Origin: an uncultured Bacilli bacterium
GTDB taxonomy: Bacteria; Bacillota_I; Bacilli_A; RFN20; CAG-288
Direction: 5' to 3'
Assembly: GCA_944349335.1 (NCBI GenBank)
Contig: CALVMW010000002.1
Span: 124,001 to 188,000, forward strand
Length of the DNA stretch: 64,000 nucleotides
Position 1 is the stretch's first letter. Each line of letters opens with the position of its first letter. Made by a program: the position numbers and the translations under genes. The notes below the pieces were generated by a model. That model saw only the letters and a program-made list of their open reading frames with translations, ran no database searches and was not told the DNA's origin. Positions 25,807 to 51,539 of this stretch are shown in pieces.

Positions 25807-25883
25807 TGGTCGGGGAAATGGGATTTGAACCCATGACCTCTTGCTCCCAAAGCAAGCGCGCTACCAAGCTGCGCAATTCCCCG
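25807..25883 (-). tRNA. tRNA-Pro (anticodon TGG)
   Basis: Cloverleaf on the minus strand: acceptor CGGGGAA pairs with TTCCCCG, anticodon stem CTTGC/GCAAG with loop TTTGGGA (anticodon TGG), T loop TTCAAAT. CCA is encoded (25807-25809). Confidence 0.97.
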
Positions 25884-45118: not shown

Positions 45119-46021
45119 ATGAATAAAGTGCCAAGGCAAGAAAATAAACTTTCATCTCTATTATATGAAGTGGAAAATAATCTCTTCATCATTTTACTTT
45201 TATCTTTGATTACTTTGATGTGTTATCAATTTAAGGTATTCCCTTTCTCTTCAAAGATGATAGAGATAGTAGTTTCTGAGAATATGTCTTTCACTTTTGA
45301 TCAAAGCTTATTATTTTTTACTTTGATTTTTTCTTTTATTGATGTGATTATCTTTTATCTTTTCCAATTTATTGTTAAACCTTCGAATATAAAACCTGAC
45401 TTAGGAAAAAAGAATAAACACCTTCTCCCCTTTATTATTCTCTCTTTATTTGGAATCTTAGCTTATATTTGTATTTCTGTTTTATTATCTGGTTTTTCAG
45501 TGAATAATGGGTTTGCGATAGTTATTTCAACTATTTTAGTTTCTATATATAGTTTGTTAATTTATAAGATGTATTTAGAAAATAAAACTTTTTCTAATGC
45601 TCTTTTCTGGGAGATATTCCGTTTTGCTATCGTTGGATTAGTTGCTGCTGTCTTTGATTTTATTGTCTGCTATTTAGTTCAGTTTATTCTTTTTAAAGGT
45701 AATACTGCTAGCTATGTAACTATTGTCTCTACGGCTTGCGGTTTTACTATCGGTGTTATTATCAATTATTTAATGTCAACATTTATGGTATATAAAAATG
45801 CTAAAACAAATATTTCTCGCACTTTTAAAGGAATAGTTATCTTTTTAGTATTAGCTATTATCGGTTTGTTTATCGGTATCGGCATCCAATATTTCTTATA
45901 TGATTATTTATACTTAAATGTTAAATTAACATTCTTCTCATATCCTATTGACTTTATTATCCGTACACTTATTGTTATGGTCTATAATTATATTTCAAGA
46001 AAGCTTATTCTTTATAGATAA
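45119..46021 (+). CDS. GtrA-like membrane protein
   Basis: A 300-residue protein with about eight membrane spans. The C-terminal 135 residues are a GtrA domain (FRFAIVGLVAAVFDFIVCY, then INYLMSTFMVYKN), a family that flips or helps transfer lipid-linked sugars for wall polysaccharides. The N-terminal about 155 residues add four spans of unknown role. It is divergent from tRNA-Ser and followed by the tRNA-Gly operon. No glycosyltransferase is adjacent. Confidence 0.88.
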   Translation: MNKVPRQENKLSSLLYEVENNLFIILLLSLITLMCYQFKVFPFSSKMIEIVVSENMSFTFDQSLLFFTLIFSFIDVIIFYLFQFIVKPSNIKPDLGKKNKHLLPFIILSLFGILAYICISVLLSGFSVNNGFAIVISTILVSIYSLLIYKMYLENKTFSNALFWEIFRFAIVGLVAAVFDFIVCYLVQFILFKGNTASYVTIVSTACGFTIGVIINYLMSTFMVYKNAKTNISRTFKGIVIFLVLAIIGLFIGIGIQYFLYDYLYLNVKLTFFSYPIDFIIRTLIVMVYNYISRKLILYR

Positions 46022-46024
46022 TTC

Positions 46025-46053
46025 TTGCAATAATTTTCTTTCTTAGATATAAT
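46025..46053 (+). promoter_or_regulatory. Promoter of the tRNA-Gly/MIF/tRNA-Cys/tRNA-Arg operon
   Basis: -35 TTGCAA (46025-46030), 17-bp spacer, -10 TATAAT (46048-46053), 16 bp before tRNA-Gly. No further promoter is seen within the operon. Confidence 0.85.
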
Positions 46054-46069: not shown

Positions 46070-46143
46070 GCAGGCGTAGTTCAATGGTAGAACTTCAGCC
46101 TTCCAAGCTGATCACGCGGGTTCGATTCCCGTCGCCTGCTCCA
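46070..46143 (+). tRNA. tRNA-Gly (anticodon TCC)
   Basis: Acceptor GCAGGCG pairs with CGCCTGC, anticodon stem TCAGC/GCTGA with loop CTTCCAA (anticodon TCC), T loop TTCGATT, encoded CCA at 46141-46143. Only 8 bp separate it from the MIF-like start codon. Confidence 0.97.
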
Positions 46144-46151
46144 AAATACAT

Positions 46152-46490
46152 ATGCCTTATATCGCTTTAAGAACTAACCAAAAGATCGCTCAAGATCAAG
46201 AAAAAGAGTTAAAAACTCTTCTTGGTCAATACATCTCTCTCCTTCCTGGAAAGAGTGAAATCTACCTTATGTGTTCTTTTACTTCCTCTTCTCTTTATTT
46301 TCAAGGTAGTGATGCTCCTTGTGCCATCGTTCAAGTTAACATTTATGGGAAAGGTAATAAGGAAGCATATGATAAGTTAACTAAGAAAGTGACAGAGTTA
46401 GTTTCAGAAAAGCTTACTATTCCTTCAAATAGGGTTTATGTCGAATACATTGAGACACCTTATTGGGGAATGGATGGCAAAAACTTTTAA
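46152..46490 (+). CDS. MIF/phenylpyruvate tautomerase family protein
   Basis: A 112-residue tautomerase-superfamily protein of the macrophage migration inhibitory factor type. The catalytic Pro follows Met1 (MPYIALRTN); LPGKSEIYLM supplies the conserved Lys; GSDAPCAIVQV, NRVYVEYIE and WGMDGKNF complete the MIF pattern at normal length. It is likely a keto-enol tautomerase; bacterial MIF homologues in host-associated species may also act on immune cells. The gene lies inside a tRNA operon: 8 bp after tRNA-Gly, stop 2 bp before tRNA-Cys, no ribosome site. tRNA-processing enzymes would therefore create both ends of its mRNA. Confidence 0.93.
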   Translation: MPYIALRTNQKIAQDQEKELKTLLGQYISLLPGKSEIYLMCSFTSSSLYFQGSDAPCAIVQVNIYGKGNKEAYDKLTKKVTELVSEKLTIPSNRVYVEYIETPYWGMDGKNF

Positions 46491-46492
46491 TC

Positions 46493-46567
46493 GGTTCCAT
46501 AGCCAAGCTGGTAAGGCAAAGGACTGCAAATCCTCAACCGCGGGTTCGAATCCCACTGGAACCTCCA
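46493..46567 (+). tRNA. tRNA-Cys (anticodon GCA)
   Basis: Acceptor GGTTCCA pairs with TGGAACC, anticodon loop CTGCAAA (anticodon GCA), T loop TTCGAAT, encoded CCA. It begins 2 bp after the MIF-like stop codon. Confidence 0.95.
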
Positions 46568-46568
46568 T

Positions 46569-46645
46569 GCGCCCATAGCTCAGCTGGATAGAGTACTTGA
46601 CTACGAATCAAGGGGTCAAGAGTTCGAATCTCTTTGGGCGTACCA
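46569..46645 (+). tRNA. tRNA-Arg (anticodon ACG)
   Basis: Acceptor GCGCCCA pairs with TGGGCGT (first pair G-T), anticodon stem CTTGA/TCAAG with loop CTACGAA (anticodon ACG, normally deaminated to ICG), encoded CCA. One base separates it from tRNA-Cys. Confidence 0.96.
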
Positions 46646-46659
46646 TATTAGAAATCTAA

Positions 46660-46692
46660 AGTGATACTTCATATAGAGGTGTCACTTTTTTC
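46660..46692 (+). terminator. Terminator of the tRNA/MIF operon
   Basis: AAGTGATAC pairs with GTGTCACTT (one wobble) before a T-run. Beyond it, 46693-47048 holds no recognisable gene; an AAAAGTTTCACCA stretch may be mobile-element debris. Confidence 0.8.
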
Positions 46693-47048
46693 ATAAATAC
46701 AAGTAGTGAAGCCACTTTTTGGCGATAGAAAAGTTTCACCAGGTATTACAAATACTTAAAATTTAAGTAAATGGAAGCTTAGTGATATACTTGGCGGAAA
46801 CTTTTATTATAGTATTAGCCGAACAGAATTGCTGATTTATTACGGTTACTGGATAATGAAATAGTGTAAATAAATCAATTTGAATTTATCTACCAAACTT
46901 AATATTACTTTAATCAGTGAAGTTAATCATTCTTTTTTTTGCTTTAAAATGTTTAATAACTACAAGAAATTAAAATAGAGTGACAGAAAAAAGAATAATG
47001 TCACTCTAGATGTCGCTCTTGATGGATTAAGTGATTTAGAACTTCAAA

Positions 47049-47107
47049 ATTTATTTCGCCATTTATTTCGCCATCGTATTGATTTATTTCGCCAAATTCG
47101 GTACAAT
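47049..47107 (+). promoter_or_regulatory. Promoter and three 12-bp operator-like repeats of the AlbA_2 gene
   Basis: ATTTATTTCGCC occurs at 47049-47060 and 47061-47072 in tandem and at 47082-47093. The third overlaps the -35 TTGATT (47079-47084), which is 17 bp from -10 TACAAT (47102-47107). The same 12-mer, inverted, recurs in the 3' coding part of the gene. All three copies precede the expected transcription start, so they act as DNA sites. Confidence 0.8.
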
Positions 47108-47135
47108 ATACATAAAATAAAGGAGGTAACTTGCT

Positions 47136-48470
47136 TTGCACGAAGATGAAAGAAAAGAATTTAAAAAAACAACTAATGAATTAAGAGAAGCAATAATTTC
47201 TATTGCTAGTATATTAAATAAGCATAAATATGGCGAATTATTTTTTGGAATTAAAAATGATGGAACTCCTTATAAATTTGAAATTACTGATTCAACTTTA
47301 AGAGATATTTCACGCAAAATTTATGAAGGAATTAAACCTCAAATATTCCCTAACATAGAAATAACAACATTTAAAGGAATTGAAGTTATAAGAGTTGAAT
47401 TCAAAGGTGAAGACATACCTTATTCAGCATTTGGCAAATATTATATAAGAGTAGCTGACGAAGATAGAGAACTTACACCAAAAGAATTACGTAATATAAT
47501 GATTGCTAAAGAGTATGAAGAAAATTGGTGTGATAAATTATCTAATCTAACTATATCTGATATAAAAATGGAAACTTTAAAAACATTTTATGATAATGCA
47601 ACTGAGTGCGGTAGACTTCCAAAAATTAATTTTGATCCTAAATCATTATTGTTAAAGCATAATCTTCTTAGAAATAATTACTTAACAAATGCAGGGGCGA
47701 TGTTATTTTCAAATTCAAATCCTATCACATTAAAATTAGTAGTGTTTGCAACTGATAAAAGAGAAACTATTTTGGATTTAAAAACAATTAAAGGAAACAT
47801 ATTTGATCTTATTAATGAAGGAATGGATTTTGTTATAAAAAACATTAGATGGAGAGTTGTTGTTGATGGACAAACTATCGAACGAAAAGAAATTCCTGAA
47901 ATTCCATTGATTGCTTTGAGAGAAGCTATTATAAATTGTTTTGCTCATGCAAGATATGATGGCAATGTTCAACATGAAATTGATATTTATTCTAATCGAA
48001 TTTCAATCATAAATCCTGGCTCATTTGCTAATGATTATTTGCCAACAGATTTTTTTGAAAGAGATTTAAAATCCTATTTAAGAAATCAAGCGATTGCAGA
48101 TATTCTTTATCTTTGTAAGGACGTTGAGACTTGTGGTCATGGTTTAAAAAAGATTTATATTCTATGCAAAGAAGCTAATGTCGACGTATCTTTCATTAAT
48201 AATGAAAATGATTTTACAATTGAATTTTCTCGAATTGATAGAAATAAGAGTGGCGAAATAAATGGCGAAATAAATGGCGAAATAAGCAAAGACGAGATTG
48301 CGGTTTTAAATGTCTTAAAGGATAACCATAAAGCAATTAAAAAAGAAATAATAATTAAAACCAATTTTTCTAGTAGAAAAATAGATCGCTTAATTAAGAA
48401 TCTAAAAGCTAAAGGGTTGATAAAAAGAATCGGCTCTAATAAAACAGGCTACTGGGAGGTTTTGAAATAA
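47136..48470 (+). CDS. AlbA_2-domain ATP-binding transcriptional regulator
   Basis: A 444-residue protein starting at TTG 47136, fixed by AGGAGGT 8 bp upstream. Residues 1-125 form an AlbA_2 (Schlafen-like) domain (RKEFKKTTNELREAIISIAS, FFGIKNDG). A GHKL-type ATP-binding domain follows with N-box REAIINCFAHARYDG. A GEIN-repeat linker (NGEINGEINGEI, encoded by 12-bp repeats) leads to a C-terminal winged helix of about 60 residues. Such proteins are often linked to mobile DNA or stress regulons. The promoter repeats suggest autoregulation. The stop overlaps the kinase-like start (TAATG). Confidence 0.88.
   Translation: MHEDERKEFKKTTNELREAIISIASILNKHKYGELFFGIKNDGTPYKFEITDSTLRDISRKIYEGIKPQIFPNIEITTFKGIEVIRVEFKGEDIPYSAFGKYYIRVADEDRELTPKELRNIMIAKEYEENWCDKLSNLTISDIKMETLKTFYDNATECGRLPKINFDPKSLLLKHNLLRNNYLTNAGAMLFSNSNPITLKLVVFATDKRETILDLKTIKGNIFDLINEGMDFVIKNIRWRVVVDGQTIERKEIPEIPLIALREAIINCFAHARYDGNVQHEIDIYSNRISIINPGSFANDYLPTDFFERDLKSYLRNQAIADILYLCKDVETCGHGLKKIYILCKEANVDVSFINNENDFTIEFSRIDRNKSGEINGEINGEISKDEIAVLNVLKDNHKAIKKEIIIKTNFSSRKIDRLIKNLKAKGLIKRIGSNKTGYWEVLK
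48252..48287 (+). repeat. Three 12-bp repeats inside the AlbA_2 gene
   Basis: GGCGAAATAAAT at 48252-48263 and 48264-48275, and GGCGAAATAAGC at 48276-48287 (10 of 12 match). They encode Gly-Glu-Ile-Asn units and are the reverse complement of the ATTTATTTCGCC promoter repeats. Confidence 0.9.
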
Positions 48471-49012
48471 TGGTAAATAAAGCCTTTGACAAAGACGATT
48501 TAATTTTAATTAATAATGATACTTATAAAATTATAAAACTTATAGGTCATGGGAAAGGCGGTTATTCTTATTTAGCCACTAATGAAAATAGTGAAGTAGT
48601 AGTCAAGAAAATTCATCATGAACCATGTTCGTATTATAATTTTGGAGATAAGATTCGATCTGAATTAAATGATTATCAAACTTTATTAAATCTAGGTATT
48701 AGGATTCCAAAAATGATTGCTTATGATATTGAACAAGAAATTATTGTAAAAGAATATATTAAAGGAGAAGTAGTATCTAACCTAATTAAGCAAAATAAAG
48801 ATATTTCTAAATATATTGATCAACTAAGAGAATTTTTACCTATTTTATATAAGTCAAATACCAATATTGATTATTATCCTACTAACTTTGTTGTTAACTC
48901 TATTAACGATTTAATCTATTACATCCATTATGAATGTAACATTTATGATGTTAAGTGGGATTTTGATAATTGGGGTATTAAATATTGGAATGGCGAAGAA
49001 GCTCTTAATTAA
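48470..49012 (+). CDS. Kinase-like protein (small Ser/Thr kinase or phosphotransferase type)
   Basis: A 180-residue protein with a compact kinase fold: glycine loop GHGKGGYSYLA, a VVVKK lysine, a hinge at VKEYIKGEV, a catalytic-loop-like IDYYPTNFVV (D and N kept), and a metal-binding region YECNIYDVKWDFDNWG. It resembles small 'serine/threonine kinase' annotations of Clostridia, close to aminoglycoside phosphotransferases; the substrate is unknown. It begins at the last base of the AlbA_2 stop, so the two are co-translated. Confidence 0.8.
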   Translation: MVNKAFDKDDLILINNDTYKIIKLIGHGKGGYSYLATNENSEVVVKKIHHEPCSYYNFGDKIRSELNDYQTLLNLGIRIPKMIAYDIEQEIIVKEYIKGEVVSNLIKQNKDISKYIDQLREFLPILYKSNTNIDYYPTNFVVNSINDLIYYIHYECNIYDVKWDFDNWGIKYWNGEEALN

Positions 49013-49105
49013 GATAATTATGATATTCGATTCTATTTTAGTGACGAATGAGGTAGGGGTGCCGAAAATATCAAAAAAATATTAGTTTATCATCATTAAA
49101 AGTCC

Positions 49106-49127
49106 GTACCTATTAAGGTACTTTTTT
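49106..49127 (+). terminator. Terminator after the kinase-like gene
   Basis: GTACC/GGTAC with a TATTAA loop and six T. The preceding 49013-49105 shows no gene. Confidence 0.75.
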
Positions 49128-49141
49128 GTTAAAATTAATTT

Positions 49142-49690
49142 ATGAATTATAAAATCTCCTATTTACCTAAAAATAAATGGAAAAATTATCCTTTAGATAT
49201 GGAGTTTAAAACTCATTATTTTTATGATTTTGAAATAAATGATAACAATGACAGAGTTGATATTTCTTTTATATTAAAAAAGTCAGATGAGGAATTAAAT
49301 TGTCCAATAGATTGTGATTTTCCTGAAATTCTTTATCCTTCATATTATAAAAATTGTAAAGCATTTGGTGTTTTAGAAAATGATAATTTAATTGCTTGTA
49401 TTCAAATAAATCTCGAATATTCTAATAGACTACGATTAACAACAATTTGGGTTAAAGAAGATTATAGAAGACAAGGAATTGGCACTCTATTATTTAAATA
49501 TATAGAGAAATATGCTTTAAAGATTAAAGCAAGAGCTATTATTTTAGAAACTCAAAGCAATAACGTAGTTTCAATTGATTTCTATAAGAAAATGGGATTT
49601 GAAATTAATGGCTTTGATAAAAGTTGCTATTCCAATTTTGATAAGGAGAAGAAGAATATAAGATTAGAGCTTGTGTATTATTTAAACTAA
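49142..49690 (+). CDS. GNAT family N-acetyltransferase
   Basis: A 182-residue acetyl-CoA-dependent transferase. Motif A is complete: TTIWVKEDYRRQGIGTLLFKY, in pieces R-R-Q-G-I-G-T. The downstream ETQSNNVVSIDFYKKMGFEI is typical of small-molecule or streptothricin-type acetyltransferases. The substrate is unknown. An extended -10 (TGTTAAAAT, 49128-49135) ends 6 bp before the ATG with no ribosome site, indicating a leaderless transcript separate from the upstream pair. Confidence 0.88.
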   Translation: MNYKISYLPKNKWKNYPLDMEFKTHYFYDFEINDNNDRVDISFILKKSDEELNCPIDCDFPEILYPSYYKNCKAFGVLENDNLIACIQINLEYSNRLRLTTIWVKEDYRRQGIGTLLFKYIEKYALKIKARAIILETQSNNVVSIDFYKKMGFEINGFDKSCYSNFDKEKKNIRLELVYYLN

Positions 49691-49994
49691 GGAAAACTTT
49701 CTAACAAAATAACTGATTTCAAGAGGCAATATTTATATACCGGATATTATTTATAGTGATAACAATTATTATCTAGTAGAAACTATATTTTAATTTCATA
49801 CTTAATAAAAGTGGGGTTAATAAGTTCGAAATAGTATCCAATAAATTAAATAAAACACAAAATAAGATTTTTTTGATTAGAAAAATTAAATTTAAGTGAT
49901 ATTTTACTTATGATGTTTGTATTTTATACTCTAAGGTGAGTAGATTTATAATACCGATGCAGTAAGTGATGCAATTGTAATAAACACCTTTTAC

Positions 49995-50371: not shown

Positions 50372-50466
50372 AGTATTTTACAGCGGAACTGCTAGGCAGT
50401 TGAGAAGGTTTAAACCTGACGCTTAGAACCTGTTGGTTAAGACCAGTGTAGGGAGTAAAAAATATA
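50372..50466 (+). promoter_or_regulatory. TPP riboswitch (THI element)
   Basis: Outer helix TATTTTAC/GTAAAATA-type pairing encloses the conserved TPP core: AGTTGAGAAGG (variant of CTGAGA), AAACCTGA, and GAACCTGT with CCAGTGTAGGGAG. It binds thiamine pyrophosphate. A terminator follows at 50484 and a thiamine-type transporter gene at 50526, so excess TPP should stop transcription early. Confidence 0.92.
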
Positions 50467-50483
50467 TTCCTTTCGTATTTTGG

Positions 50484-50525: not shown

Positions 50526-51539
50526 ATGAAAACTTCAAGTCGTCTCTCTACTAACAAAGCAATCTCTCAGATGGTTATTTCAGCAACTTTGCTTGCTATC
50601 GCTTTGATTCTTGACTTTGTCGTCAACTACATTCCATTTTTGAATTGGCCGAGCGGTGGTTCAATATCACTAGCTATGTTGCCTCTTTTCTTAGTCGGTT
50701 TTATCTGTGGTCCTGTTTGGGGATTTGGTATTTCAATTATTTTTGGCGCATTATCGATGCTTATCGGTGGTGCTTATACTTATAATTGGTGCTCAATATT
50801 GCTTGATTATATCTTAGGATATGGAATTATTGGCGTCTGTGGTTTCTTTACTAAATATTTTTATCAAAAGAAAACCTCACTTCTTATTTCAGGAATGATT
50901 ATTGCTGCTCTATTGCGCTTTTTATGTTCCTTCCTCTCTGGTTGTATCGTCGTTTGGGATATTAATCCTAATGGCTCTATCGATCCTAATTTTTCAAGCG
51001 CAGCTATGTCTTATTCTGCAGTTTATAATTTAGGATATATATTCCCTTCACTAGTTATTTGTATCGTTGTTTTTGCTTTACTGGCTAAGCCACTATATAT
51101 CTTAGCTAAGAGTCAACTCTTCCGTAATATTGCTCCTCAATTAGTTATAGATAATAGTGATGAAAAGATAAAAGATCCTTATGCAATCTTTGATTCTTCA
51201 TTTATTTCCTTAGCTATTGTTTTATTAGTTATTTCAATACTCTCTTGTATTCCTAATCTTTCTTATGAAGCAGCTGGACATGAACAAGTAATCAATTTTG
51301 TCGCCTTTGGTATTATCTCTATAATCTTCTCTCCTTGTCTATTAGGTTATTCTATTTTTAGAACAGTAAAATCTTATACTTCTGAAGTTGAAATTCCTGC
51401 TTTAAGTAATATTTTCCATTCTTCTAAAGGCTATTATTTGACTTTTTCTATCATCTTCCTTTTAACTTTAGCCTTAGCGATACTTTCTATGGTCCTTAAC
51501 TTTGCTAATATTGTTCCTGGATTTAGTTTAGAAGACTAG
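50526..51539 (+). CDS. thiT: Thiamine ECF transporter S component (ThiT-like), extended
   Basis: Substrate-binding membrane subunit of an energy-coupling-factor vitamin transporter. The first about 205 residues have six spans and ThiT-like motifs (LNWPSGGSISLAMLPLFLVGF, in part; YTYNWCSILLDYILGY). The TPP riboswitch upstream supports thiamine. At 337 residues it is about 130 longer than a usual ThiT; the extra C-terminal part has a charged linker and three further spans, with no ATPase motif. No EcfA/EcfT genes are present, so a shared energising module is expected elsewhere. GAAAGGAGA sets the start. Confidence 0.9.
   Translation: MKTSSRLSTNKAISQMVISATLLAIALILDFVVNYIPFLNWPSGGSISLAMLPLFLVGFICGPVWGFGISIIFGALSMLIGGAYTYNWCSILLDYILGYGIIGVCGFFTKYFYQKKTSLLISGMIIAALLRFLCSFLSGCIVVWDINPNGSIDPNFSSAAMSYSAVYNLGYIFPSLVICIVVFALLAKPLYILAKSQLFRNIAPQLVIDNSDEKIKDPYAIFDSSFISLAIVLLVISILSCIPNLSYEAAGHEQVINFVAFGIISIIFSPCLLGYSIFRTVKSYTSEVEIPALSNIFHSSKGYYLTFSIIFLLTLALAILSMVLNFANIVPGFSLED

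Follow-up and report, generated by a model that had tools for sequence, protein, structure and literature searches.

A gene of the MIF family (tautomerase superfamily) is enclosed by tRNA genes in the window, by which we mean the whole stretch of 64,000 nucleotides that was analysed (C2:124001-188000 of G000, a 1.23-Mb assembly that is 91% complete). As shown in Table 1, the order is promoter, tRNA-Gly, MIF, tRNA-Cys, tRNA-Arg and terminator; an earlier note on this DNA had read it in the same way, and every element was found at the base that it gave. The gaps of 8 nt from the CCA to the ATG and of 2 nt from the MIF stop to tRNA-Cys are exact by ARAGORN, Rfam and ORF coordinates. Transcription is predicted to start ~10 nt 5′ of tRNA-Gly, and the promoter score was reached by none of the shuffled sequences (0/300). 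Each of the three tRNA genes is the only one of its kind in the assembly. Outside the unit, a GtrA-like gene lies 5′ of the promoter, and in several relatives a similar protein-coding sequence is also found 5′ of tRNA-Gly. An assembly artefact is unlikely, since the identical order is present in independent MAGs.

Table 1. Features of the MIF unit with its 5′ neighbour, and the second unit of the same genome (window positions unless marked otherwise).
Feature	Position	Strand	Details
GtrA-like membrane protein gene	45119..46021	+	Pfam GtrA_DPMS_TM; 5′ neighbour, outside the unit
SigA-type (sigma-70) promoter	46025..46053	+	TTGCAA-17-TATAAT; score 10.9; serves the whole unit
tRNA-Gly(TCC)	46070..46143	+	encoded CCA; ARAGORN, Rfam
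Spacer, CCA to ATG	46144..46151	+	AAATACAT, 8 nt; no Shine-Dalgarno
MIF-fold ORF (tautomerase superfamily)	46152..46490	+	112 aa; Met-Pro start, TAA stop
Spacer, MIF stop to tRNA-Cys	46491..46492	+	TC, 2 nt
tRNA-Cys(GCA)	46493..46567	+	ARAGORN, Rfam; no detectable promoter of its own
tRNA-Arg(ACG)	46569..46645	+	ARAGORN, Rfam; 1 nt after tRNA-Cys
Intrinsic terminator hairpin	~46659..46691	+	AAGTGATACTTC-ATATA-GAGGTGTCACTT, then T run; -14.7 kcal/mol
Second unit (outside the window)	G000:C2:3051-3587 (L246 1049-1585)		tRNA-Arg(CCT)-tRNA-Arg(CCG)-AAAAAG-ATG...TAA-TT-tRNA-Leu(TAG), terminator

Inside the unit, neither MIF (best score 1.9; P 0.90) nor tRNA-Cys (P 0.46) has a promoter above shuffled sequences, as scored with an approximate matrix that weak or non-SigA promoters could escape. 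No terminator was found in the stretch from tRNA-Gly to tRNA-Cys; the hairpin behind tRNA-Arg is itself missed by a generic terminator scan. No Shine-Dalgarno (SD) sequence was found at the MIF start in G000, and thus the lack of a ribosome site and of an internal promoter, both claimed earlier, were borne out. An SD is found at the first start in 25 of the 43 window ORFs of at least 150 aa (31/43 at the best nearby start), so a start without one is not exceptional in this genome. With a promoter at the 5′ end, a terminator at the 3′ end and neither in between, MIF appears to lie within a single tRNA transcription unit, as had been proposed, with no promoter, terminator or SD of its own.

The start codon of MIF is fixed by its Met-Pro start, since the catalytic residue of the MIF family is the proline right after the initiator methionine. 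The protein matches Pfam MIF PF01187 (2.7e-9; 37.8 bits versus a curated cut-off of 22), and its best PDB sequence match is the Leishmania MIF-like protein. The AF2 model (pLDDT 96.3) matches Leishmania MIF1 with a TM of 0.95; Leishmania MIF1/MIF2 are the best matches, and the predicted fold is the beta-alpha-beta tautomerase fold. M1-P2 and K34 are invariant in alignments A1 and A2, and Y96 is invariant in A1 and almost so in A2. No residue of the invariant set has been lost from the ORF, which is intact and shows 45-52% identity to homologues. A single-sequence protein search of genome contigs returned no MIF relatives, and an alignment-based search did find them, at least 592 being encoded in bacteria, many in Clostridia. 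With so many bacterial relatives, nothing suggests a host-directed function, and the idea of a "host-immune-type protein" coupled to tRNA output therefore found no support. Like other members of the superfamily, the protein has the fold, the Met-Pro start and the conserved Lys and Tyr, and only its genomic setting is unusual. Judged by these features, it is an ordinary bacterial tautomerase-fold enzyme, by its family a putative trimer with keto-enol tautomerase activity. Its distribution in this order is patchy (33/279 genomes, in three genera).

Within the genus, MIF is present in 10 of 15 genomes, absences here and elsewhere being read from incomplete MAG assemblies, and in 9 of these 10 the pair tRNA-Cys-tRNA-Arg lies directly 3′ of it. 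A search of related genomes for the gene order recovered Gly-MIF-Cys-Arg in five genomes including G000. The earlier note had allowed that the arrangement might be absent from all close relatives; this is not the case, as the unit is fused, with no internal terminator or promoter, in G001 and G010 as well as in G000, and the same gene order is found in G006 and G009. An equivalent promoter stands at the same place before tRNA-Gly in all four of these relatives. The 2-nt gap between the MIF stop and tRNA-Cys is common to the three fused genomes, none of which has a terminator after tRNA-Gly, and no promoter was found before MIF or tRNA-Cys in G001 or G010. By contrast, the looser relatives keep these signals. 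The tRNA-Gly terminator is found in G006, G009, G013, G005, G003, G004 and G012, an extended -10 promoter (TGnTARAMT) precedes tRNA-Cys in G013, G012, G004, G009 and G005, and most looser relatives have promoters of their own at both MIF and tRNA-Cys. In G009, the parts are independent, with a terminator after tRNA-Gly, a MIF promoter and SD, and a tRNA-Cys promoter; in G006, the terminator and an SD are present, MIF lacks a promoter and that of tRNA-Cys is marginal. The spacer between tRNA-Gly and MIF is 31-32 nt with a strong SD in G001 and G010, whereas it is 8 nt with none in G000; an SD is present in 11/11 aligned homologues from relatives, and among the 12 aligned it is lost in G000 only. 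In trees of MiaB and of MiaB+MtaB, G000, (G001, G010) and G006 form a clade with support of 99-100. Since the fused genomes share this clade and the signals are intact in looser relatives, the fusion is derived. G006 is nested in the clade yet not fully fused, which implies either two fusions or one partial reversal. In the MIF tree, the genes of G009 and G013 cluster with clostridial MIFs despite their usual site before tRNA-Cys; an in-place replacement by horizontal transfer is possible, with low tree support.

A second gene in G000 is enclosed in the same way. Of the 44 tRNA genes listed for the whole genome, just two are preceded by a co-directional CDS that stops no more than 10 nt away, in each case at 2 nt, and every other such gap is at least 26 nt. 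Likewise, a CDS begins no more than 20 nt behind a tRNA gene in just two places, at 8 and 6 nt, with 28 nt as the next distance up. The two tight pairs are sandwiches, one being the MIF unit and the other an ORF of 94 aa between tRNA-Arg (6 nt) and tRNA-Leu (2 nt), so the spacing typical of tRNA punctuation is found in both units (8/2 and 6/2 nt). Since just two tight pairs occur among the 44 genes, the layout goes beyond chance. The product of the 94-aa ORF is membrane-like, with two hydrophobic stretches, and has no Pfam match above cut-off. In G010 (C1; L277 6253-6800), the same three tRNA genes surround a protein that is 31% identical (E 1e-14), and this level of identity across very different base compositions argues that the ORF is a real protein gene. 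In both genomes, the second unit has a promoter only at its front and no strong SD. The ORF of G010 overlaps tRNA-Leu by 2 nt, the first two bases of the tRNA gene completing its TGA stop, and an RNase P cut at this point would split the stop codon and give a non-stop message. The second unit was not found in the large part of the outgroup genome G012 that was read, where an apparent tRNA-Arg(CCT) proved to be a false match within protein-coding sequence. Taken together, the gene order, the spacing, the absent signals, the derived state, the conservation and the recurrence can all be read from the genomes themselves, and the finding is somewhat stronger than first stated, as the second unit and the relatives share the design.

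CCA is encoded in 44/44 tRNA genes of G000 and in 38/38 of those seen in G010. The genome encodes RNase J and RNase R; a search for RNase Z in the assembly, which is 91% complete, found none, the sole TIGR02651 match being RNase J. Mollicutes likewise encode CCA and lack RNase Z, and RNase R trims their pre-tRNA in one step (PMC4014445). Since all CCA ends are encoded and RNase Z was not found, 3′ maturation is probably exonucleolytic in G000. The earlier proposal was that 3′ maturation of tRNA-Gly and RNase P cleavage at tRNA-Cys would together release the MIF mRNA, and its two halves fared differently: separation by RNase P at tRNA-Cys is plausible and indeed likely from the layout, but the failure to find RNase Z makes it uncertain that the message would be released cleanly at the tRNA-Gly end. 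Exonucleolytic maturation of tRNA-Gly would consume the MIF RNA unless an endonuclease cuts the 8-nt spacer. In Cutibacterium (P.) acnes, an endonuclease cuts a few nucleotides 3′ of CCA-encoding tRNAs without tRNase Z (PMC3848588). The spacer in G000 contains UACAU, reported as a B. subtilis MazF site in work cited by PMC4014445. MazF-type cleavage of the leader was considered and set aside, as no PemK/MazF family protein was found in the genome. In G012 and its near relative G004, most of the tRNA genes seen have no encoded CCA, which shows that the CCA habit varies within the genus.

The account that we favour, with a probability of roughly 0.78, is that of a mixed tRNA-mRNA unit that is processed to give a near-leaderless MIF message and that arose by erosion of signals. 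We infer that MIF is co-transcribed with the tRNAs, released by RNase P and translated from a near-leaderless message. One promoter would yield one precursor carrying tRNA-Gly, the MIF mRNA, tRNA-Cys and tRNA-Arg. A cut by RNase P at tRNA-Cys would set the 3′ end of the mRNA 2 nt past the MIF stop, and the MIF mRNA would be made nearly leaderless either by an endonuclease acting within the 8-nt, A/U-rich spacer or by exonucleolytic maturation that is only partial, to be translated without an SD. If RNase P acted first, exonucleases could enter at the MIF stop, run to tRNA-Gly and destroy the message; MIF translation would then have to precede maturation, or an endonuclease would have to cut the spacer. 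The most interesting prediction is thus a competition between tRNA trimming and MIF translation. Transcription of the single tRNA-Cys and tRNA-Arg(ACG) would have to pass through MIF, which would make it hard for MIF to acquire a terminator or to be shut off. As for its origin, the genes would already have stood in this order in an ancestor, and the terminator of tRNA-Gly and the promoters of MIF and tRNA-Cys would have been lost since; such erosion of intergenic signals is probably the source of the unit rather than a selected regulatory link. A stronger version, in which tRNA excision is, as in mitochondria, a genuine expression device that makes near-leaderless, SD-independent mRNAs for MIF and the 94-aa protein and ties their output to tRNA synthesis, is tentative and on balance doubtful.

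The best of the competing explanations is that MIF is a decaying passenger, hardly translated, whose RNA serves mainly as the 3′ trailer of pre-tRNA-Gly (trimmed by RNase R) and as the path to tRNA-Cys. Since the SD has been lost in G000 alone, MIF could be barely translated there, and exonucleolytic maturation would be expected of a genome that encodes CCA and RNase R and in which RNase Z was not found (PMC4014445); moreover, MIF is absent from 5/15 genomes of the genus, which suggests that it is dispensable. However, the ORF is intact and has kept its invariant residues and its identity to homologues, and the 94-aa ORF is conserved without a strong SD in two genomes, which argues that absence of an SD does not mean death. 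We therefore regard this explanation as improbable.

A functional linkage, in which MIF or the 94-aa protein acts in tRNA biology or has been selected to follow tRNA output, might be suspected because MIF lies beside tRNA genes in two families, next to tRNA-Cys and tRNA-Gly(TCC) in the window's genus and next to tRNA-Gly(CCC) in genus g27 of another family. Of 19 loci examined in g27, 10 have MIF just 5′ of tRNA-Gly(CCC). Eight of these leave 36-56 nt between the two genes, whereas the gap is 4 nt in G168 and 0 nt in G150; in G150, MIF has no SD nearby. An extended -10-like box is seen in most of the wider gaps but is weak against shuffled sequences (P 0.10-0.36), and the contrast in promoters between wide and fused gaps is only suggestive. 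Among 86 sampled tRNA genes of these groups, a CDS stop lies within 4 nt upstream in five cases, all of them MIF (rough Fisher P 4e-4, for a non-random, phylogenetically dependent sample with an estimated denominator). Shared ancestry and the choice of loci inflate this statistic, though, and the second unit has another protein in this role, while most MIF loci in the window's genus have separate promoters. Clostridial MIF loci are not beside tRNA genes either: a linkage general to MIF was rejected, as in a set of 80 loci, most of them clostridial, only the members of Bacilli have a tRNA gene within 100 nt. This leaves a functional linkage very unlikely. Equally little probability falls to a hidden promoter within tRNA-Gly or at 46143-46152 that would start a leaderless MIF transcript directly, without any need for tRNA processing, because, although the spacer is A/T-rich and leaderless mRNAs are known in Mollicutes and Actinobacteria (PMC4014445, PMC3848588), 90% of shuffles match or beat the best score there, as against 10.9 for the tRNA-Gly promoter, a -10 box within tRNA-Gly would be constrained by the tRNA sequence, and the fused G001 and G010 have none there either.

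On the favoured reading, the MIF unit is by its layout a mixed tRNA-mRNA operon, and its organisation resembles tRNA punctuation in mitochondria. Mixed tRNA/protein operons are already known in bacteria. In E. coli, operons of the pgsA-glyW-cysT-leuZ and secG-leuU type have a protein gene and tRNA genes that are co-transcribed and separated by processing; unlike MIF, the protein gene there lies 5′ of the tRNAs, has its own expression signals and is not sandwiched. In the tufB operon of Salmonella and E. coli (thrU-tyrU-glyT-thrT-tufB; PMC6134099), one promoter likewise serves tRNA and protein genes, and the protein gene follows tRNAs, but tufB is last and encodes EF-Tu, whereas MIF is a non-translational enzyme set between tRNAs with gaps of 8/2 nt and no SD. 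In mitochondrial punctuation, protein genes also abut tRNAs with almost no spacer (PMC8437803, PMC8601606), and excision of the tRNAs would here, too, set both mRNA ends and give near-leaderless messages. The differences are that two genes rather than a whole genome are arranged in this way, that excision is predicted here, and that mitochondria use RNase P and RNase Z; with no RNase Z found, the unit could work like punctuation only with another 3′ enzyme. Leaderless mRNAs of P. acnes and Streptomyces resemble the predicted MIF message in having leaders of <10 nt and no SD (PMC3848588, PMC4681348), but they have their own start sites, and MIF would gain its short leader only through processing, by a cut falling inside 46143-46151. 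No direct precedent for a protein gene between bacterial tRNA genes was found in a search covering few subscription journals, which is weak evidence for novelty. A protein gene clamped by tRNAs at 6-8/2 nt without a ribosome site, which occurs at two places in G000 and has been kept in a related genome, is the arrangement that mitochondrial punctuation would lead one to expect. This raises the questions of how an mRNA that has practically no untranslated sequence at either end is released, protected and translated, and of whether trimming of the upstream tRNA destroys the MIF message. Because the layout recurs in several lineages, and relatives with intact signals can serve as controls, it offers a natural experiment on the loss of intergenic signals.

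Two other parts of the window were also considered. Several relatives have tRNA-Pro(TGG) after tRNA-Arg, and in the window this gene is found at 25807-25883; the stretch that follows the unit (46700-49700) holds unrelated genes (ORFs of 444, 180 and 182 aa) and is a possible insertion or rearrangement. Further downstream, a TPP riboswitch (50372-50471) lies 5′ of a gene for a 337-aa membrane protein (50526-51539), which is probably a thiamine transporter component.
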